From IMG/VR virus record IMGVR_UViG_3300045738_000193, positions 1-46,265 of that record: 46,265 bases of DNA, one strand, 5' to 3'. Below, in pieces: positions 5,237-46,265 of the stretch. Source of the stretch: a virus. The notes beneath the pieces were generated by a model. The model searched no databases, was not told the DNA's origin, and saw only the letters and a list, made by a program, of their open reading frames with translations. Both the position numbers and the translations under genes were made by a program. The first letter of the stretch is position 1; the number at the start of each line of letters is the position of its first letter.

Positions 5237-6520
5237 ATGAGTAGTTTTCTAGCGGGTTTTGCTTCAGCTTTCAGTGAAGAATACGATGATCGCAAAAAAT
5301 ACCTACGAGATAAAAGGGCAGCTACTAGAGAATACCTAATGACATATGGTACTAACGCAGTACTTGAGGTACGGAAACGTGCCAACAATGCAATAGCTGT
5401 AGCTAGTAGCCTAAGAACTTGGGGTATTAAGGACAGTACACTTAACTACGTTGTACAGAAGCATGGCCCACAAGCTCTCACACATATATACAATGAAGTT
5501 AAGGATATTGACAAATCCCTTTTTGGAGATAGTGGTCTGGATGCCTTTATCGTTCGGGCAGATGAATACAAACCTGACGGAAAAACATGGCAAGAGATGA
5601 TTAATGAGTCCTTTGGCTTATATAGTGAAGCCAATCCTAAGACCCCAGACGAGTCAGAGGAGGTCAGCTTCTGGTCGCTTTTGGGAATGTCTGCCAACCA
5701 AGAGTCACAGGATCTCTACATGGGTGGGAAATTTACAGAAGAAGATATGCGCCGAATTGCAGGTACAGGCACACCTGCTATGCGGGGAGCACTTGAGTTC
5801 AACAGGGATGCATTACCGAAAGAACACACCGTGCAGGAACAAGGTCGGATATTCGATGCCGCCAAACTGAACCTTATTAATGATCTTACTGCGAAGGTAC
5901 CTACCTTATCATCCGATAAACTAACCGAGCTATCCACTAGTGATAGAGAAGAGTACTATCGTGTTAAACTTCTTGTAGACTTAGCGCTGGACGGGAATGT
6001 AAAGGGTCTGGCAGATGAGTTCCCAGGGGTAGCAGTAGAATCCCTAACACAATTTAATGAAAGGGTTAATGGTGCTCTACTAACTAATAATTACGCCTTC
6101 GCTGCTTCGTCGATGTATAAAATACTTAATCCTACACAGGATGAGGATGTAACTGTGGATGAGGATGTAACTGTGGATGAGGATGTAACTGTGGATGAGG
6201 ATGGAACTGTGGGCAATGGCTTGGGTACCATCGAAGAGGTGTATGAAAAACTAAAAATCGAGCAGGGTGGTAACATTCCAGATTTAGAAGACATACTTGA
6301 ATACGATAGTAGAGAAGAAATACCAGTCGGTGTGGCATGGGCCATAGTGGGAAATGAGTTTATTTATAATCCAGAGGCGGTGAACGAGACCTTCAGTCCC
6401 CCGAGCATCACCGTGACGCCTGGTGATATGCGAAAGGGTACTAACCCGTCAATTAACATTAATCCGGCAACGGGGATAAACCTGTTTGAAAGAAGCAGAA
6501 GAAGACAGGGAAATAACTGA
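5237..6520 (+). CDS. Hypothetical late protein with DEDVTV repeats
   Basis: 427 residues, unrecognised. The N-terminus is helical and charged (FSEEYDDRKKYLRDKRAATREYL style). Residues about 302-325 are four copies of an acidic hexapeptide DEDVTV. The C-terminus is polar and Asn/Pro-rich. It starts one base after the upstream stop, and its stop overlaps the next ATG by one base (TGATG), so translation is probably coupled to the 1188-residue internal protein. Placement suggests a virion or ejection protein. Nothing in the sequence gives a biochemical function. Confidence 0.6.
   Translation: MSSFLAGFASAFSEEYDDRKKYLRDKRAATREYLMTYGTNAVLEVRKRANNAIAVASSLRTWGIKDSTLNYVVQKHGPQALTHIYNEVKDIDKSLFGDSGLDAFIVRADEYKPDGKTWQEMINESFGLYSEANPKTPDESEEVSFWSLLGMSANQESQDLYMGGKFTEEDMRRIAGTGTPAMRGALEFNRDALPKEHTVQEQGRIFDAAKLNLINDLTAKVPTLSSDKLTELSTSDREEYYRVKLLVDLALDGNVKGLADEFPGVAVESLTQFNERVNGALLTNNYAFAASSMYKILNPTQDEDVTVDEDVTVDEDVTVDEDGTVGNGLGTIEEVYEKLKIEQGGNIPDLEDILEYDSREEIPVGVAWAIVGNEFIYNPEAVNETFSPPSITVTPGDMRKGTNPSININPATGINLFERSRRRQGNN
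6140..6211 (+). repeat. Four tandem 18-bp coding repeats
   Basis: Copies begin at 6140, 6158, 6176 and 6194. The first three are identical and the fourth has one T-to-G change. Each encodes Asp-Glu-Asp-Val/Gly-Thr-Val, an acidic spacer. Confidence 0.95.
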
Positions 6521-16408: not shown

Positions 16409-16437
16409 TATATATCACACTATATCCTTCGTGTCAA
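16409..16437 (-). promoter_or_regulatory. Sigma70-like promoter for the SSB-like / nuclease genes
   Basis: On the minus strand TTGACA (16432-16437), a 17-base spacer, then TATATA (16409-16414). The -35 lies in the last codons of the polymerase gene. Transcription would start about 35-40 bases before the gene at 16365. Confidence 0.65.
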
Positions 16438-18463
16438 GCCAATTCGGACCTATCTTAGCTTCTAATAATAAGGGTACGTTAAAGTCAACCCCCCACCTAG
16501 TATTGATTAAGGGTACCATGTTGTCACTTGTAGTATTTATTATCCTCATTACAGTGCTCTCCTCGTCTGGATGAATATCTATAACTACACTATCGTGTAC
16601 CGTATTAACAATGCAACTCTTTAACTTATTGGCTAGTAGCATCTTGTCTATGTAGATAAAGGCTAGCGGTACAATGTCAGCAGTTGCAAAGGACTGTACT
16701 GGGTAGTTCTTTATCTGTGTAAAGTACGAGATAGTACCATTTCTTTTACGAGCTACATATGGGAAGGAGAACTCCCTACCTGACGGGGTAGTTATACGTG
16801 TGGTGTTTACTGCCTCATCCGCTAGTTTAGCATGCCACTTAGCTATACCCTTATACTTATCTAAGAAGTGTGTGTAGTAGGTAGCTTCCGCAGGGGTCTT
16901 ACCAAAGCCTGAAGCTCCGTATAAGGGTGCAAAAGTGTGTTCCTTGGCCTCCTGCCTAGCCATAGGCTGACCAGCGTCAGTGATGACCTTAGCTGTGTAG
17001 GCATGTACATCGAAGCCGTTAGCTACCTCGGCTACAGCTACCGCATCTTGGGATAGAAATGCGGCCACACGAAACTCAAGCTGTGCAAAGTCAGCCTCCA
17101 AAATCTTCCCGCCCCCCCATCGAGATTTAAACACTCGCTTGACTGGGAACGTACCACCCCGTGGCATGTTCTGCATGTTAGGTTCAGCACCTGACAGTCT
17201 GCCTGTTCCTGTACGGTGCTGTAATAACCGTACATGTAGTTTGCCATCAGCCTTAGTAAACACAGATATACCATTAATAAAGCTTGATAGGTACACGTCT
17301 ACAGCAGAGAGCCTGCGTACTTTCCGTAAGAAGTCTTCTGAATCTGTCATACCTCTGTTACGTGCTATGCCCTCAAGGAAGGTCAGGTTATCCTTACCTA
17401 CACCAAAGCCATTGGCACTGACCCATGTTTTAGACGGGGCTGAAAACATAAGGCCAGCTACATCCTTACGATTAATAAAAATATAACCACTAGAGCCACA
17501 GACAGTGCACTTATTAGTGCGGGAGTAAGGTGTTCCATTCTTTTTTGTCTTTCTTATCTGGCCTGTACCACTACAGGACTTACATTGCTTGGCATATTGT
17601 TTGAATAGTACTTCTGAGTGTTTATCACGAAGGCCTCTGTATAAAGATGGAGACATACGTTTTTCAAATGTATCAGCCCATGACCTCTTATCCCTAGGCT
17701 TTCTACTGAAGATCACCCACGACAGTTGCTCAGGGCTATTGAGGTTAATAGGCCTATCGCCCATGAGGCGTTGTGTGTGCACTGTTAGTGCTTTCTGTAG
17801 ATCCGAACGCTCAGCTTCATAGTCAGCACGAACAGCCTCCAATGCAGCTAGGTCTACAGAGAAACCTCGCTGGTACATCCTTGATAGATGTATACACAAT
17901 TGATTAGTGAGTGCTAGGGTACCCTGTAAGCCCTTGTCTTTGTTGCAATATCTATATTGAAGTTTATCGAAGAGCTGCCTTGTGGCACCTAGGTCGCCTG
18001 ATAGGTATTCTGACAGTTCTTCGTGGGGTATGTCACGTGTGGAGTATCCCTTCTTGAAGTATTCCTTTAGGGTATCCTGCTTCTGTGTCTCTAATACGTA
18101 TCGTTTTGCACATGCATCCAGTGATAGGGGTTCCTTCTGCCCCCTCTGTAGTATATACTCGGCTAGCATAGTGTCGTAGACGGGGCCGTCATATGTAAAC
18201 CCCGACTCCCATAGCCACATTAAATCATGTGTTATGTTGTGTCCTACTAATACAGATGCACCATCCAATGCGGATTGAACAATGAACTGGCCATTAGGGG
18301 TAGGTCTCTTGTCTTCGTGATCGAATGTTACAATTGTTTCATTATTGTGTTCGTCTAGTAGGCCTACCATAACCAAGGTATTCTCAGGCTCAAAGGGGTC
18401 CAAGTGCATCTTACCACCACGATGCGTGACAGTATTTTCCACGTCTAGTGTTAGTATTGTCAT
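16415..18463 (-). CDS. Family A DNA polymerase with 3'-5' exonuclease and DnaJ-like zinc-finger insert
   Basis: 682 residues, the replicative polymerase. The exonuclease domain shows D7/E9 (LDVEN), N76-x3-D80 and Y153-x3-D157. Between exonuclease and polymerase, residues 294-326 contain CKSCSGTGQ and CTVCGSSG, two CxxCxxxG knuckles like half of the DnaJ zinc domain. A polymerase of this build is what I recall for HMO-2011-type phages. Polymerase motif A is EADFAQLEFR (D458), motif B is R503-x3-K507-x3-F511-x3-Y515-G, and motif C is TVHDSVVID, with Ser where most family members have Glu. Phe511 occupies the E. coli Phe762 position. A GGAGG site lies 10 bases before the start. Confidence 0.95.
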   Translation of the reverse strand: MTILTLDVENTVTHRGGKMHLDPFEPENTLVMVGLLDEHNNETIVTFDHEDKRPTPNGQFIVQSALDGASVLVGHNITHDLMWLWESGFTYDGPVYDTMLAEYILQRGQKEPLSLDACAKRYVLETQKQDTLKEYFKKGYSTRDIPHEELSEYLSGDLGATRQLFDKLQYRYCNKDKGLQGTLALTNQLCIHLSRMYQRGFSVDLAALEAVRADYEAERSDLQKALTVHTQRLMGDRPINLNSPEQLSWVIFSRKPRDKRSWADTFEKRMSPSLYRGLRDKHSEVLFKQYAKQCKSCSGTGQIRKTKKNGTPYSRTNKCTVCGSSGYIFINRKDVAGLMFSAPSKTWVSANGFGVGKDNLTFLEGIARNRGMTDSEDFLRKVRRLSAVDVYLSSFINGISVFTKADGKLHVRLLQHRTGTGRLSGAEPNMQNMPRGGTFPVKRVFKSRWGGGKILEADFAQLEFRVAAFLSQDAVAVAEVANGFDVHAYTAKVITDAGQPMARQEAKEHTFAPLYGASGFGKTPAEATYYTHFLDKYKGIAKWHAKLADEAVNTTRITTPSGREFSFPYVARKRNGTISYFTQIKNYPVQSFATADIVPLAFIYIDKMLLANKLKSCIVNTVHDSVVIDIHPDEESTVMRIINTTSDNMVPLINTRWGVDFNVPLLLEAKIGPNWLDTKDIV

Positions 18464-18493
18464 TCTATTTTACCTCCGCTCATCTATGGGGGG

Positions 18494-18661
18494 TTAATTA
18501 TTTAGTGTGTTTGTATTTAGTATGCTAGCTACCTCCTCCTCTGCATCCATCTTATCACTTATGGTACTCGTGGGCTCTACCTCATCTATAATAGTATCCT
18601 TTAGCGTATAGTACAGGCTCCCATATAAAATATCTTCTATACTAACTTTCATTACTGTCAT
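18494..18661 (-). CDS. Small acidic hypothetical protein (55 aa)
   Basis: Frame MTVMKVSIEDILYGSLYYTL... ending NTLNN, acidic in the second half. It begins three bases after the stop of the SbmA-like gene and ends 30 bases before the polymerase start. A GGAGAG site precedes the first ATG, and the fourth codon is also ATG. It fills a gap in an otherwise tightly packed operon. No family is recognised. Confidence 0.5.
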   Translation of the reverse strand: MTVMKVSIEDILYGSLYYTLKDTIIDEVEPTSTISDKMDAEEEVASILNTNTLNN

Positions 18662-18663
18662 AA

Positions 18664-19683
18664 TTACTTACTCTCCGATTCTGTTAAGGCTCTGTCGAAC
18701 TCTCTTATACGTTTAATAACTGACAAGAAGTCGACAATTGTAGGCCACCTATCAATAAAGAAGGTCATCGAACTTTCAACACGTCCGAAGGCATTTAACA
18801 CTTGGAACAACACACCCATTGTAATTAACTGTTGAAAATAGGAAGGCGCTAAGGCTAGTAGGGCAAGGTTCCCAATGACAAAGCCGAAGGCTTGTTGCCA
18901 AACACTAAAGCCCATGTACCAGTTGAACAGACGGTAGTAGTTCTTTCGTACAGCCTCAAACATTGGGAATAGATCTGCAACAGCACGTTGTGCGAAGTCA
19001 TCCTCTGAATGGACTAGGCGCTTACGGAACCTTGCCTCCACTACTTGGTTGGCGTACTCCAGTGATGGTAGCTTCCAGCCCAATATAACAGACACGAACG
19101 TACCGCCTAGTGACATGGTTAGTGCCACCCACACTAAGAACCCTGGGACAAACTCCCCGTTCCAGATGGGCAGACCCTCACTAAGCTCCCACAGGATAGG
19201 AAGGAAGGCCACGAGAACCAGAACCTTGGTTACAATACCAGCGATAAGACCCTGTAATGTCTTACCATATACCATGAGGTCTTCTTGAATACGCTGGCTT
19301 GAGCCTTCAATCTTAGCATCACACCCCTCCCACCGCTTGAGGTAGTAGTGCGTGTTAGCTTGACGCCACTTGAACACATACCGTTGTGTCTGCCATACGC
19401 CATACGTTGTGATGGGTACGTAGGTTGCGAGTATCTCTATGAATGACGGAATTGTATTCTCACGCAGCGTGTATAGCTGATAGAGACGTTCAGCATCCCA
19501 GCCGAGGAAGAGCATCCAGAATCGCTCCTCTTGCAGTGATTGGATGCTGTCCATCATCTCACGGTTCCACTTATTATAGAACACCAGTATCTCAACACCA
19601 TACCATAGTGTGAAGAGTATAATACCACCTACAAACCAAGCGTAGGGGCCGTACTCCTTGCTTAAAAAGAATGACTTTAACAT
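18664..19683 (-). CDS. SbmA/BacA-like inner-membrane peptide transporter
   Basis: 339 residues, polytopic. Family signatures appear in the order of E. coli SbmA (406 residues): the MLKSFF start, QRYVFKWRQANTHYYLKRW, KIEGSSQRIQEDLM, LVAFLPILWELS, GWKLPSLEYANQVVEARFRKRLV, HSEDDFAQRA, VRKNYYRLFNWYMGF and a WPTIVDFLSVIKRIREF ending. Compared with SbmA it lacks about 60 residues near the N-terminus. Family members are proton-driven importers of peptides such as microcins, bleomycin and host defence peptides, and the related domain of mycobacterial Rv1819c imports cobalamin. It sits one base after the ClpP-like gene. Arg codons are mostly CGN, unlike the AGA/AGG-rich phage structural genes, which suggests transfer. 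The purpose in a phage is unknown. Confidence 0.9.
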   Translation of the reverse strand: MLKSFFLSKEYGPYAWFVGGIILFTLWYGVEILVFYNKWNREMMDSIQSLQEERFWMLFLGWDAERLYQLYTLRENTIPSFIEILATYVPITTYGVWQTQRYVFKWRQANTHYYLKRWEGCDAKIEGSSQRIQEDLMVYGKTLQGLIAGIVTKVLVLVAFLPILWELSEGLPIWNGEFVPGFLVWVALTMSLGGTFVSVILGWKLPSLEYANQVVEARFRKRLVHSEDDFAQRAVADLFPMFEAVRKNYYRLFNWYMGFSVWQQAFGFVIGNLALLALAPSYFQQLITMGVLFQVLNAFGRVESSMTFFIDRWPTIVDFLSVIKRIREFDRALTESESK

Positions 19684-19684
19684 A

Positions 19685-20455
19685 CTATCCTCCTACACTA
19701 CCCATTGGGTTTTCGGCTGTGAGGCCACGAAAATTAATGTAATTCGTAGCTAACGTGATTAGTGTTGGCATGGACCCAAAGTCTATAGGGTTGAGCCAGT
19801 ACATAGTGCTTGCAGGAATACGGATAAACAATAACCGTAGTGCCTCGTCGATGACACCCAAGTCCTTTAGCAGATCAAGAACTGACGCTGCTGTACGGTA
19901 AGCACTAGCCTCCAACGCTGCTGGGGACATAGCGTCAGGATTAGCTGTACGTGGCCCGTGTATACCAAACCAAACGTCACCGATTAGGTACCGCATGTCT
20001 CCTCCAAGAAACATAAGGGAACATGCTGAAGCACATACAACCCGACCATCACCATCAGCGTCGGGCTGATATAGGGTGTTACCGTCCTCGTCAAGCACAG
20101 CTGTGGTACGCACTACAGTCACAACACTACGTATCTTTAGGTGTGCGGCTAGGCAAGCACCATCATGTAGGCTACCACCAGGGCTCTCAAGTATGACGAC
20201 GAATGTACCCCTTGTTGGCAGTAGTGGCATAATTTTTTCACAGTCGCCAACACCAACCTCACCTGTCATAGAGTAGAGAGTCTCAGTCAACTTAGTAAAC
20301 ACTAGTCCACTACCTTCCTCCTCATCCTCTTCTGTGTCCGTGAAGCTGCTACCTACGTAGAGCATAGTCCCCACTAGGGAGACAGTAACTACTAGCAGGA
20401 TAGCCAGCATGTAACGTATCTCCATGAAGATTGTCTTAAAACTATTTAGTATCAT
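19685..20455 (-). CDS. Membrane-anchored ClpP-fold serine protease-like protein
   Basis: 256 residues. One N-terminal transmembrane helix (about 15-35) is followed by an acidic linker. The domain then shows the ClpP/crotonase pattern seen in predicted periplasmic proteins of the COG3904 type: LESPGGSLHDGACLAAHL (oxyanion Gly pair), VVCASACSLMFLGG with nucleophile Ser143, and GIHGPR with His166. The Ser-His distance (23) is close to that of ClpP (25). C141 and C145 flank the Ser and C72 and C101 could form disulphides, fitting an extracytoplasmic domain. AGGAG lies seven bases before the start. It is co-transcribed with the SbmA-like transporter. Confidence 0.8.
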   Translation of the reverse strand: MILNSFKTIFMEIRYMLAILLVVTVSLVGTMLYVGSSFTDTEEDEEEGSGLVFTKLTETLYSMTGEVGVGDCEKIMPLLPTRGTFVVILESPGGSLHDGACLAAHLKIRSVVTVVRTTAVLDEDGNTLYQPDADGDGRVVCASACSLMFLGGDMRYLIGDVWFGIHGPRTANPDAMSPAALEASAYRTAASVLDLLKDLGVIDEALRLLFIRIPASTMYWLNPIDFGSMPTLITLATNYINFRGLTAENPMGSVGG

Positions 20456-20498
20456 TACCCTATCTCCTATTATCTTGCGTAGCTTAGATCTGCTTTGT

Positions 20499-20520
20499 TA
20501 GGTCCCATGTAGGACTTAAT
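20499..20520. promoter_or_regulatory. Palindromic GTCC-N6-GGAC element, copy A
   Basis: TAGGTCCCATGTAGGACTTAAT lies between the helicase stop and the ClpP-like gene. On the minus strand it reads AAGTCCTACATGGGACCTA, so it is inverted relative to the other three copies. It starts about 50 bases downstream of an extended -10. Confidence 0.7.
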
Positions 20521-20521
20521 A

Positions 20522-21748
20522 TTAGGCGGTATACCTAGCTATTTTATACTCTAGGTTACATGTAATCATACCATGCCAGCCTGTAAGCTTATTCTTAGCT
20601 ACAGTAATGTGCCTCTGCTTATCTTCTTCTTCATTAGAACCCTCACATACAGGGTTGCGGCTTAGTAGTAGCATCAGGTCTGTCTCGGATGCCTTGCCTG
20701 TCTTTGACCCTTCAAGCATTCCTTGGTTAAGATAGATCTTACCTTCAGCCTCTGCTGATAGCTGCGATATATAAATTAGTGCACAATCATGCTCCTTAGC
20801 TATCTGCCTAGCATAAATAGCGTTAGCCTTAAGTGCTTCATCTGGTCGAGTGTATCCTCGCATGTCAGCAAACTTATCACCCATATCTAAAATAACAACG
20901 TCGGGCTTGTACGTCTTACATACAGACTCAACCCACGCCATGTCTCTGCCTGTAGCATCTTTAATTAACAGGTTATCAGATACTTTGGAGTATATACTTA
21001 ATGCCCTGGCCTTGTCAAGTTGTATCTCATCACGTGTCATGCCCGTTGCTGCCGATGCGTATCGTAGTCCAAGGCGATGGTACGCCTCCTCATTACATAA
21101 CACAATAACCCTTGCGCCCTGATCTACAAATCCATCAGGTCCAGCTACAATAGAGGCTTGAAAGGATGACTTGCCTACATTAGATCTAGCCCCAAGCATA
21201 ATTAAATGGCCCCCATTTATACCGCCCACCTTACGACTTAAGGTAGCTAGGTTAAATTTCCATCGGGTTTCATCACCTGTCATCTCAAGGATAGTATCTA
21301 ATGAAATGTCTTCCCACTCTATATTTAGATCAGGGGTGAAGTCATCTCCGTAGTGCTCCAGTAAATTGTGAAGAGGTTGCAGATTATTCTCGACACCATT
21401 GATATAATCAAATCCGAGGTTAGCTACTTCTTCACCTACTACCTGTCGAAATAGTTTTGAGAGTACATCCTGTGCTATGTCTGACCCCATAGCAGCCTCA
21501 CTCTTAATACGAGTAAATAAACCTGTGTATGCCTCCTTCTGTGCACTAGTAAGGGTAGGATTACCCGCCAAGAATAGCGCCTCAATTTCCTGCGGTGTTA
21601 CATCACGGTGGTACATATCCATAGCTGTGTCTAGGGAACTCTTTATCTTTCGTACATCCTTACTGAATAATTTATCGGGGCATCGTGACCCTCGGTGTGC
21701 ATCGTAAAACTCTTTATCCATTAGGCTACGGATTAAGGCTAGCTCCAT
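20522..21748 (-). CDS. Replicative DNA helicase (DnaB / T7 gp4-helicase-like)
   Basis: 408 residues, a RecA-fold hexameric helicase of superfamily 4. Residues 179-195 read GGHLIMLGARSNVGKSS, the Walker A loop in the DnaB-type context. VVILDMGDKF (about 285-294) is Walker B. ALIYISQLSAEAEG is the DnaB-type sensor segment with Gln, and an SKTGKASETDLMLLL segment fits the arginine-finger region. The N-terminal 140 residues are helical, as expected for a linker or primase-contact domain. The primase gene ends where this one starts (shared base at 21748), so the two T7 gp4 functions are split here into separate genes. Confidence 0.9.
   Translation of the reverse strand: MELALIRSLMDKEFYDAHRGSRCPDKLFSKDVRKIKSSLDTAMDMYHRDVTPQEIEALFLAGNPTLTSAQKEAYTGLFTRIKSEAAMGSDIAQDVLSKLFRQVVGEEVANLGFDYINGVENNLQPLHNLLEHYGDDFTPDLNIEWEDISLDTILEMTGDETRWKFNLATLSRKVGGINGGHLIMLGARSNVGKSSFQASIVAGPDGFVDQGARVIVLCNEEAYHRLGLRYASAATGMTRDEIQLDKARALSIYSKVSDNLLIKDATGRDMAWVESVCKTYKPDVVILDMGDKFADMRGYTRPDEALKANAIYARQIAKEHDCALIYISQLSAEAEGKIYLNQGMLEGSKTGKASETDLMLLLSRNPVCEGSNEEEDKQRHITVAKNKLTGWHGMITCNLEYKIARYTA
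20565..20573 (-). promoter_or_regulatory. Candidate extended -10 promoter for the ClpP-like/SbmA pair
   Basis: On the minus strand TG-G-TATGAT, inside the 3' end of the helicase gene. No good -35 is seen. It lies about 50 bases upstream of the palindromic element, the same distance as at two other early promoters. Confidence 0.4.
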
Positions 21749-25609: not shown

Positions 25610-26512
25610 TCATACTGCCTCCTGCAAAAAGTATGGGTCATCCAAGGCCAGTTCTTCGAGGATAGAAGTGTAACTGAGGCCATAGGACCGAAGAAGGTCA
25701 GCCACCTCGCTAGGGTTATTCTTAATCAAGTCAGTCATAGGGTCGCTGTAGTAATCATCATCATCAGAGTATTGATCCCACCACCAGCTAGTCTTGTAAT
25801 CGGCAGGGTCACGAGCAATAACTATCTTAGACCAATCAGCCGCAACCAGTGCGTCTCTAAGCTGAATAGCAAAGTAAAAATCCTGCTCTTCCTTATTCGT
25901 ATGCTGGCTATAGTAACCAACGCTTATGTTGGTACACTCAGCAACCACCGCAGCGTACTCATTTGAGTCCGTGTATGATCCACCAGCGTCAGCCTCCATA
26001 GTCATACCAGTGGCTTCAGCGAAGGATAGGGCGAACTTCTCGGAAGCTGTTCGAACCCCCATCTGGTGCGTTATGATCGACTTTGTACCCTTACGATCAA
26101 AGGAGATCGCAGCTTCAATCCGTTCAAGCCACTTAGGGTTGCCTAGGACAAGCGCCGTTGAACCTTGACACCCTAGTTCCTCGGCGGCGTGAACCACGTA
26201 GATACCAGGAACCCTAGCTTCAATCATCTCAAGGATTAACCATACGCCTGTTGTACAGTCGGCCCCAAGACAGTTAGCGTCAGATGTGATGAAGCCATTC
26301 TTGGATACGATCACCTTCTGGAACCCGCCCATCCTATGAACGGTGTCGTGGTGAGCCATGAAAGCGAGGGTGCTCCCCTCACCTACCTCAAGGATGTAGT
26401 TACCGTGGATGTCAGGATCACCGAAGACAGGATCAAGATACTTCTCGCAAAACAAGTCTTGTTCGAGTGAGCCTTCGGGGCGACAGTATGTTAACATTTC
26501 AAGCAGCTTCAT
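25610..26512 (-). CDS. M20/M28-type zinc metallopeptidase-like protein
   Basis: 300 residues. The di-zinc peptidase pattern is complete in order: FMAHHDTVH (H54 or H55 and D56), CLGADCTTGV (D85 in the position of the bridging Asp), VVHAAEELGCQG (E111 general base, E112 ligand), AISFDRKG (D139) and GYYSQHTNKEE (H204). It probably removes amino acids from peptides in the cytoplasm, as no signal peptide is seen. The C-terminal 70 residues are Asp/Tyr-rich and extra to the fold. GGGAGG lies six bases before the start inside the upstream gene, which overlaps it by 14 bases. Codon and base use (many GAT/GAC, CGC, GATC) differ from the flanking phage genes. Confidence 0.8.
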   Translation of the reverse strand: MKLLEMLTYCRPEGSLEQDLFCEKYLDPVFGDPDIHGNYILEVGEGSTLAFMAHHDTVHRMGGFQKVIVSKNGFITSDANCLGADCTTGVWLILEMIEARVPGIYVVHAAEELGCQGSTALVLGNPKWLERIEAAISFDRKGTKSIITHQMGVRTASEKFALSFAEATGMTMEADAGGSYTDSNEYAAVVAECTNISVGYYSQHTNKEEQDFYFAIQLRDALVAADWSKIVIARDPADYKTSWWWDQYSDDDDYYSDPMTDLIKNNPSEVADLLRSYGLSYTSILEELALDDPYFLQEAV

Positions 26513-45018: not shown

Positions 45019-46265
45019 ATGTCCGGTTACACTAGACAATCTACATACGCAGACAGTGATGTTATTCAGGCGTCTGATACTAATGATGAGTTTACTCAGT
45101 TAGTAGCTGCTTTTAATAATGTGTCAGGCCATTCCCATGACGGCACTGCTGCTGAAGGCCCAGTGATAGGCCTTATAGGAGATGAAGGGGTAACATCCCC
45201 GCTGAATAAGATTGTTGTGGATACTACTAATAATCGCATAGGTGTGTTTGTAGATGTTAGTAGTGCAACAGTAGAACAGCTACGCTTCCAGGATGGCGCT
45301 GTAGTACCTGTCACTACTAACGATATTGATCTAGGTACTAGCCTCCTTAAATTTAAGGATGGTTATTTCTCAGGTGATTTAACAGTTGATGGTAATATTA
45401 CTCTGGGAGGCACTATTACCCTAGGTGATGCAGGTACAGATAACATTGTACTTAATGCTGAGATCAACTCTCATGTAATCCCCAATATTGACAATACATA
45501 TGACCTAGGTAGTGCCACTAAAGAATGGCGTAATATATACATAGACGGTACCGCTAACATTGACAGTTTAGTAGCTGACACTGCCGCTATCTCTGGCGGT
45601 ACTATTACAGGTATCACAGACATAGCAGTTGCAGATGGGGGTACAGGAGCCTCTAATACATCAGGTGCTCGTACAAACCTAGGCGTAGTTATCGGCACAG
45701 ATGTTCAGGCATACAGTGCTACATTGTCATCTACTACAGCAAGCTATACTACCGCAGAAGAAAGCAAACTAGCTGCTATTGAAGCTAGTGCTGACGTGAC
45801 TGACACGACTAACGTGACTGCCTCTGGTGCTCTCATGGATAGTGAGCTCACTAGTATTACAGCAGTAAAGGCACTTAACCAAGGGGTAGCTACTACAGAT
45901 ACACCTACCTTTGGTGGTATTGTCACAGCTGGCAATGTAGACGGGAGGGATGTATCAGTAGATGGTACAAAGCTAGACGGCATTGAGACACTAGCTGATG
46001 TAACCGATGTAACAAACGTAACAGCTGCTGGTGCACTTATGGACAGCGAACTTGCTGGCATAGCTGCTGTTAAAGCGACAACAGGAACCTTCCTAACAGC
46101 TGACGAAACCAAACTAGACGGCATTGAAACACTTGCTGACGTAACCGATGTAACTAATGTGACAGCTGCTGGCGCTTTGATGGACAGCGAACTTGCTGGC
46201 ATAGCTGCTGTTAAAGCGACCACAGGAACATTCCTGACGGCAGACCAGACTAAACTAGACGGCAT
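45019..46265 (+). CDS. Tail fibre protein, 3' partial
   Basis: 415 codons visible and open to the window edge. It starts MSGYTRQSTYADSDVIQASDT with AAGG eight bases before the ATG. An N-terminal tail-attachment region with VSGHSHDGTAAEGPVIG (His-Ser-His motif common in marine phage fibres) is followed by DLGTSLLKFKDGYFSGDLTVDG and DLGSATKEWRNIYIDGTA blocks. A series of 47-residue repeats (ADVTDVTNVTAAGALMDSELAG) then begins, giving a trimeric beta-helical shaft. It probably recognises the host receptor; the tip is missing. Confidence 0.85.
   Translation, partial: MSGYTRQSTYADSDVIQASDTNDEFTQLVAAFNNVSGHSHDGTAAEGPVIGLIGDEGVTSPLNKIVVDTTNNRIGVFVDVSSATVEQLRFQDGAVVPVTTNDIDLGTSLLKFKDGYFSGDLTVDGNITLGGTITLGDAGTDNIVLNAEINSHVIPNIDNTYDLGSATKEWRNIYIDGTANIDSLVADTAAISGGTITGITDIAVADGGTGASNTSGARTNLGVVIGTDVQAYSATLSSTTASYTTAEESKLAAIEASADVTDTTNVTASGALMDSELTSITAVKALNQGVATTDTPTFGGIVTAGNVDGRDVSVDGTKLDGIETLADVTDVTNVTAAGALMDSELAGIAAVKATTGTFLTADETKLDGIETLADVTDVTNVTAAGALMDSELAGIAAVKATTGTFLTADQTKLDG
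45979..46265 (+). repeat. 141-bp tandem coding repeats in the tail fibre
   Basis: Units begin at 45979, 46120 and 46261 (cut by the window end). Each encodes a 47-residue shaft repeat, and adjacent copies are nearly identical. An earlier, more diverged unit starts about 45776. Confidence 0.9.

Follow-up and report, generated by a model that had tools for sequence, protein, structure and literature searches.

The auxiliary genes known from phages mostly serve photosynthesis and the supply of phosphate, ammonium and nucleotides. For the locus presented here, the closest described systems are E. coli SbmA and Sinorhizobium BacA for its transporter, ClpP and other SK-clan proteases for its protease, and the ExbB-ExbD, TolQ-TolR and MotA-MotB stators together with ZorAB for genes that recur around the two in other phages. 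The genomic setting is that of the HMO-2011-type phages, which are marked by a family-A DNA polymerase with a partial DnaJ zinc insert (PMC9038755), and the transporter family, SLiPT, is characterized by a ladder of six glutamates, E193, E203, E269, E276, E287 and E378 (PMC13316013). Searches of the open-access literature, preprints excepted and in part with broad queries, found no work in which auxiliary genes of phages are connected with either SbmA or ExbB/ExbD, in agreement with the initial annotation, which knew of no described phage system of this type. For each part of the locus a family or fold is already known; the novelty lies in how the parts are combined.

The window, that is, the whole stretch of 46,265 bases analyzed here, is an IMG/VR virus record. 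By sequence, we assign it to an HMO-2011-type podovirus, as a fragment, because its polymerase carries the DnaJ-type zinc insert (DnaJ_CXXCXGXG at 0.00022, below the Pfam cut-off) and is 65–68% identical to the polymerases of HMO-2011, CRP-1 and CRP-345 (65% to HMO-2011). The genomes of these three phages span ~54–55 kb, so that the window record is probably incomplete. The window shares with these phages the gene order around the helicase-polymerase junction and a class II (RTPR-type) ribonucleotide reductase (RNR), and differs from them in what the junction holds. The gap between helicase and polymerase is a known cargo slot in the cultured relatives: in HMO-2011 helicase and polymerase adjoin directly, with no cargo, whereas thymidylate synthase and small genes occupy the gap in CRP-1 and CRP-345. 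In the window, the slot (18464–20521) is filled by the protease and SbmA open reading frames (Table 1), between a DnaB-type helicase upstream and the family-A DNA polymerase downstream, precisely where the initial annotation had placed the two genes.

Table 1. Features of the protease-SbmA locus and its borders (window coordinates)
Feature	Position	Strand	Basis or remark
Family-A DNA polymerase with DnaJ zinc-motif insert	16415..18463	-	Pfam; downstream border of slot
Small ORF, 55 aa, after sbmA	18494..18661	-	
SbmA/BacA-family (SLiPT) transporter, 339 aa, without TM0, clade v1	18664..19683	-	Pfam, PDB, NCBIfam, tree
Asp318 codon, equivalent of SbmA ladder residue E378	18730..18732	-	Alignment to SbmA
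Gln144 codon, equivalent of SbmA ladder residue E203	19252..19254	-	Alignment to SbmA
Membrane-anchored ClpP-fold serine protease, 256 aa	19685..20455	-	ORF, conservation, AF2 model, Foldseek
Asp225 codon, candidate third triad residue	19781..19783	-	At least 90% of relatives
His166 codon, predicted catalytic His	19958..19960	-	Invariant
Ser143 codon, predicted nucleophile, within C-A-S-x-C	20027..20029	-	Invariant
E90-S-P-G-G94, oxyanion-hole-type motif	20174..20188	-	Invariant; role inferred from ClpP
Protease N-terminal membrane helix, residues 2–45	20321..20452	-	Secondary structure of AF2 model
DnaB-type helicase	20522..21748	-	Upstream border of slot; same slot in HMO-2011, CRP-1, CRP-345

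Both genes are encoded on the minus strand, the protease from 20455 to 19685 and SbmA from 19683 to 18664, and the coordinates confirm the single base that was reported to separate them. The shared promoter proposed along with this arrangement was not recovered: there is no sigma-70-like site in 20456–20522, upstream of the pair, and the region as a whole holds 11 such sites compared to 10.4 in shuffled sequence. Co-transcription of the two genes is suggested by their spacing. The arginine codons of the pair are mostly CGN, as had been noted (25 of 30, compared to 397 of 718 elsewhere in the window; Fisher p=0.002), but the contrast drawn with the phage genes is weak, because several core phage genes of the window are as CGN-rich as the pair. 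For the same reason, and because the G+C content of the pair (0.47–0.48) is close to that of the window (0.45), this bias is weak evidence of recent transfer.

The window protease has no sequence match in Pfam, PHROG or PDB; specifically, a search for membership in PF00574 gave nothing for the window ORF and 0.17 for one relative (L150). Its AF2 model (pLDDT 87.8) consists of one long N-terminal helix and a globular domain, and the top Foldseek matches listed are all ClpP (E~1e-5, probability 1.00, TM-score by target length mostly 0.6–0.7), which agrees with the membrane-anchored ClpP fold recognized originally. Sequence conservation points to a predicted Ser-His-Asp triad and oxyanion glycines G93 and G94: Ser143, His166, the E90-S-P-G-G94 motif and four cysteines are invariant in 24 relatives, so that the proposed Ser/His pair is kept, and Asp225 is found in at least 90% of these sequences, with histidine at the equivalent position in one lineage (L012/L014/L015). 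K7 and R14 precede the membrane helix and an acidic run follows it, suggesting an N-in/C-out orientation. Given the positive charges before the helix, the cysteines and the signal-peptide-like start of L150, the protease domain is predicted to be periplasmic. In the L150 protein (5247–6053 of its record) this start takes the place of the long anchor, making it the sole relative that lacks a membrane anchor; its record contains no SbmA. Thus, the phage protease shares with ClpP and other SK-clan proteases the fold, the Ser/His/Asp candidates and the GG oxyanion motif, but differs from ClpP in having its own N-terminal membrane anchor, four invariant cysteines, no Pfam CLP_protease match and a predicted periplasmic location. 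Among 385 alphaproteobacterial genomes, just five weak partial matches to this protein were found.

The identity of the second gene as an SbmA/BacA-type importer, as first proposed, is firm: the protein matches PF05992 (SbmA_BacA) with E=1.3e-74 over positions 7–314 of 315 and E. coli SbmA structures with E~3e-49 in a PDB sequence search. Its residues 16–333 align to SbmA 86–393; only 15 residues precede this alignment, so that about 70 N-terminal residues, and with them TM0a/TM0b, are missing, and there is no fused ATP-binding domain. It scores 224 bits against the SbmA equivalog PRK11098, below the 492-bit cut-off, and its best NCBIfam match, PRK12369 ('putative transporter'), is likewise below cut-off (281 bits compared to 385). 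PRK12369 describes short bacterial SLiPT proteins of equal length that also lack TM0, and it fits two other viral SbmA lineages described below, v2 and v3, better (478 bits for L107).

The ladder positions of the window transporter are E134, Q144, E209, E216, E227 and D318. The expectation that the transporter glutamates would persist in relatives is therefore borne out for four of the six, which are invariant in the clade to which this protein belongs (v1), and fails for the two others, replaced in nearly the whole clade: the E203 position is Gln in 22 of 24 v1 sequences, compared to Glu in all 43 bacterial sequences and in the 23 viral ones outside v1, and the E378 position is Asp in 20 of the 24. 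With two ladder glutamates replaced, proton coupling in clade v1 may be altered or lost, and proton-driven peptide import by a v1 homodimer, as family membership would imply, is putative. Within the searches made, the sequences of this clade come from viruses only, and for the proton ladder of the SLiPT family it serves as a natural experiment. The closest non-viral SbmA is no more than 40% identical to the window protein, which argues against recent transfer from a bacterium, the one exception being the only close match in GTDB genomes (69%), L059, a MAG contig with T4-like gp55/gp47-type genes beside the pair that is probably a phage. Compared to E. coli SbmA and Sinorhizobium BacA, the window transporter retains PF05992 and four ladder glutamates but lacks TM0a/TM0b, carries E203Q and E378D, belongs to a virus-only clade and has a protease as gene partner.

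Scanning IMG/VR with single queries yielded 36 and 21 loci, and scanning with alignments yielded 65 v1 SbmA loci and 66 protease loci. In every locus that reaches both genes (~65 contigs, related to one another, so that the counts overstate independence), the protease gene directly precedes SbmA on the same strand, at a spacing of −1 to 145 bases. The exceptions are two contigs that start inside sbmA (L036, L097) and L150, which has the protease and no SbmA in a record of 44 kb. Of 50 distinct v1 SbmA genes, 48 adjoin the protease, and the other two are cut by the contig end. The contigs carrying the pair share little else with the window. Many are T4-like, to judge from gp55-, gp47-, UvsW- and clamp-loader-like neighbors seen by sequence inspection, and others are podoviruses. 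The initial annotation had offered a conserved two-gene cassette and a chance pick-up as opposite outcomes; co-occurrence of the pair in fixed order across such different phages rules out the latter. Among the cultured phages in INPHARED, there were four SbmA matches, all weak (S.Kent 1-2-1, Acinetobacter MD-2021a twice, and a fecal record), and we suspect that these are bacterial DNA. The fixed protease-SbmA pair is a feature of many unrelated uncultured marine phages and, convincingly, of no cultured one.

Conserved as it is, the pair is usually part of a larger module and not a stand-alone cassette. Neighbor clustering identified recurrent families around it. c5 is a MotA_ExbB-family (PF01618) membrane protein of ~150 aa (28.2 and 25.2 bits, cut-off 22.9). 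c4 comprises one helix (5–35), with a membrane aspartate, D15, that is invariant in 32 sequences, and a beta domain, predicted to be periplasmic, whose best PDB match is weak (2qng, TM 0.51). c3 is a small membrane protein; our searches assigned no family to it or to c2. c12 is ClpP (PF00574, 5.7e-26), which appears to join the larger cassette sometimes and perhaps often. With A1 for the protease and A2 for SbmA, the gene orders include A1-A2-c5-c4-c3-c12 and c5-c4-c3-c2-A1-A2. The stator lies within six genes of v1 SbmA in 31 of 50 cases, and five large contigs in which the trio is not next to the pair (layout 3: L029, L039, L040, L050, L077) encode c4 elsewhere in the same record. No match to c3, c4, c5 or ClpP was found in the 46-kb window record, and L150 as well as several records with the pair also lack the c5-c4-c3 trio, which may be missing because these records are incomplete.

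The trio is not confined to the neighborhood of the pair. Relatives of c4 were confirmed at no fewer than 481 IMG/VR stretches, and nearly all of the 80 kept contain c5-c4-c3, mostly without the pair. HMM searches also found the trio in the cultured Rhizobium phages 16-3 (p038/p040/p042), RHph_N3_13 and P10VF, where it is annotated as hypothetical; in 16-3 and N3_13 a trypsin-like protease is nearby, but neither SbmA nor a ClpP-fold protease was found in these phages. In bacteria, c4 matches 60 of 385 alphaproteobacterial genomes, and c5, c4 and c3 occur together in all 20 loci read closely, with no constant neighbor in the regions read (gene calls did not recover c4 in several of these). The trio is far commoner than the pair and therefore has some function independent of it. 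It shares with ExbB-ExbD, TolQ-TolR, MotA-MotB and ZorAB the MotA_ExbB match of c5 and the invariant membrane aspartate of c4, but differs from known stators in that c5 is so short and c4 has a beta domain of its own and no TonB, TolA or peptidoglycan domain. Essentially, it is an unnamed stator present in hundreds of viral loci, and its occurrence in cultured Rhizobium phages and alphaproteobacterial chromosomes makes laboratory testing possible now (viral and bacterial loci together: L154 5479–6983, L155–L158, L180–L199, L220–L295).

Marine viral contigs encode two further SbmA lineages, v3 (161 confirmed loci) and v2 (110 confirmed loci), both apparently unreported (L296–L449). In a tree of SbmA sequences, v1 stands alone on a long branch (100/100), with a warning from the program about long branches, whereas v2 and v3 fall among bacterial SbmAs, implying that phages acquired SbmA at least three times. 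A number of v3 and v2 contigs have SbmA placed after the trio, with an HtrA-type protease of trypsin fold (Trypsin_2, 2.7e-26; Do-family, 5.2e-58) within a few genes (L262/L296 for v3, L418 for v2), and HtrA abuts v2 SbmA in two contigs, L106 and L376. The copy in L106 (5128–7262) lacks a recognizable GNSGGP/GDSGGP motif, so that its activity is unsure. In most of the loci L311–L319, ClpS (2.9e-25; e.g., L312 9699–10001) lies between c3 and SbmA, mostly with ClpP close by; NfuA, an Fe-S assembly protein and Hsp20 are encoded in the vicinity. Within six genes of SbmA, the stator was found in 16 of 51 and HtrA in 4 of 51 v3 cases, compared to 2 of 58 and 6 of 58 for v2; these are raw counts, inflated by related contigs. 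SbmA is thus strongly linked to the cassette in v1, moderately in v3 and only weakly in v2.

We tentatively interpret the pair as the protease and importer parts of a phage envelope module that couples periplasmic proteolysis to proton-driven peptide import, a proposal to which we give a little less than an even chance, with peptide scavenging as the best guess for its function. The protease would cut proteins or peptides in the periplasm, SbmA would transport the resulting peptides into the cell by means of the proton gradient, the stator could draw on this gradient too, as a drive or a gate, and ClpP/ClpS or, in the window, an M28-type peptidase (PHROG 4191; 25610–26512) might complete the breakdown to the amino acids needed for making virions. 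Least certain among these steps are the substrate and what the stator does. In favor of the module, the order of protease and SbmA is fixed across unrelated phages, the same roles recur in some contigs with other parts, as stator with v3 and HtrA, stator with v2 and HtrA, and stator with ClpS and SbmA, and the trio lies near a trypsin-type protease in the Rhizobium phages N3_13 and 16-3. Against it count the rarity of v2 SbmA near stator or HtrA, the minority of v3 loci that have them, the replacement of two of six ladder glutamates in v1, the abundance of the trio relative to the pair and the absence of the trio from the window and L150, though both records may be fragments. A supply of peptides and amino acids fits the genes for an ammonium transporter, a Na/Pi cotransporter, and amino-acid and PnrA-like binding proteins in L262 (14359–16934) and L257 (1436–6827); the M28-type peptidase fits it too, though none was found near other carriers of the pair. 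If true, a unit of protease and peptide importer would extend the known repertoire of phage takeover to the supply of peptides (amino acids) or to control of the envelope, and the pair and the motor together suggest an undescribed phage reworking of the infected-cell envelope, perhaps for peptide harvest.

A more elaborate version would have a proton-driven stator drive or gate import through a re-engineered SbmA (E203Q, E378D) next to a periplasmic protease, the whole having been put together more than once by phages, with SbmA lineages of separate origin and with proteases not homologous to one another. In this full form, we regard the proposal as doubtful.

The HtrA, ClpP/ClpS and Hsp20 neighbors and the ExbB/MotA-type stator would also suit protection or stress control of the envelope, with Tol-Pal/HtrA-like quality control or removal of antimicrobial peptides keeping the envelope intact until lysis. 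In rhizobia, uptake of host peptides by BacA is protective, and the trio also forms a stand-alone operon in alphaproteobacterial chromosomes. However, envelope protection does not by itself explain the fixed pairing of importer and protease, and the nearby nutrient genes point elsewhere, so that we consider it unlikely.

Import of cobalamin, raised as a possibility in the initial annotation, would have the SbmA-like protein carry B12 across the inner membrane, as the related Rv1819c does, while the stator energizes uptake across the outer membrane and the cofactor feeds a class II RNR. In enterobacteria, B12 uptake is indeed powered by stators of the ExbBD type, and a class II RNR is encoded in the window and in the records of L027, L033 and L093, directly upstream of protease or stator genes in L033 (6973–8973), L418 (3984–5996) and L282 (1421–3364). 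The fit to the window does not generalize: in large v1 carriers (G005, 342 kb, and the G008, L009 and L021 records) the RNR is of class I and a class II enzyme gave no match, so that a B12-RNR link is not supported as a general rule, and the protease is left without a role. B12 import is kept as a rival, though a quite unlikely one.

Superinfection exclusion or counter-defense, in which the stator would keep out phages that arrive later or would poison a Zorya-like complex of the host while protease and SbmA destroy and clear a periplasmic signal or toxin, appears very unlikely. The best NCBIfam/PADLOC matches of c5 are to ZorA (6.5e-5 and 2.3e-7), but at far below family cut-offs (22 bits for the former, compared to 500), the long tail of ZorA is missing from c5, the general searches brought up no ZorC/D/E, and host chromosomes often carry the trio, away from any defense island seen. 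That the genes are ordinary cargo, unconnected morons traveling together by descent with no joint function, is similarly improbable: the slot does hold thymidylate synthase in CRP-1 and CRP-345 and nothing in HMO-2011, and the carriers are partly related, but the order persists in unrelated phages and at different genome positions, with 45–65% protease identity, and separate SbmA lineages occupy the same slots. Apart from this locus, the window carries low-complexity ORFs with internal repeats at both ends of the record (26–424 and 45744–46265).
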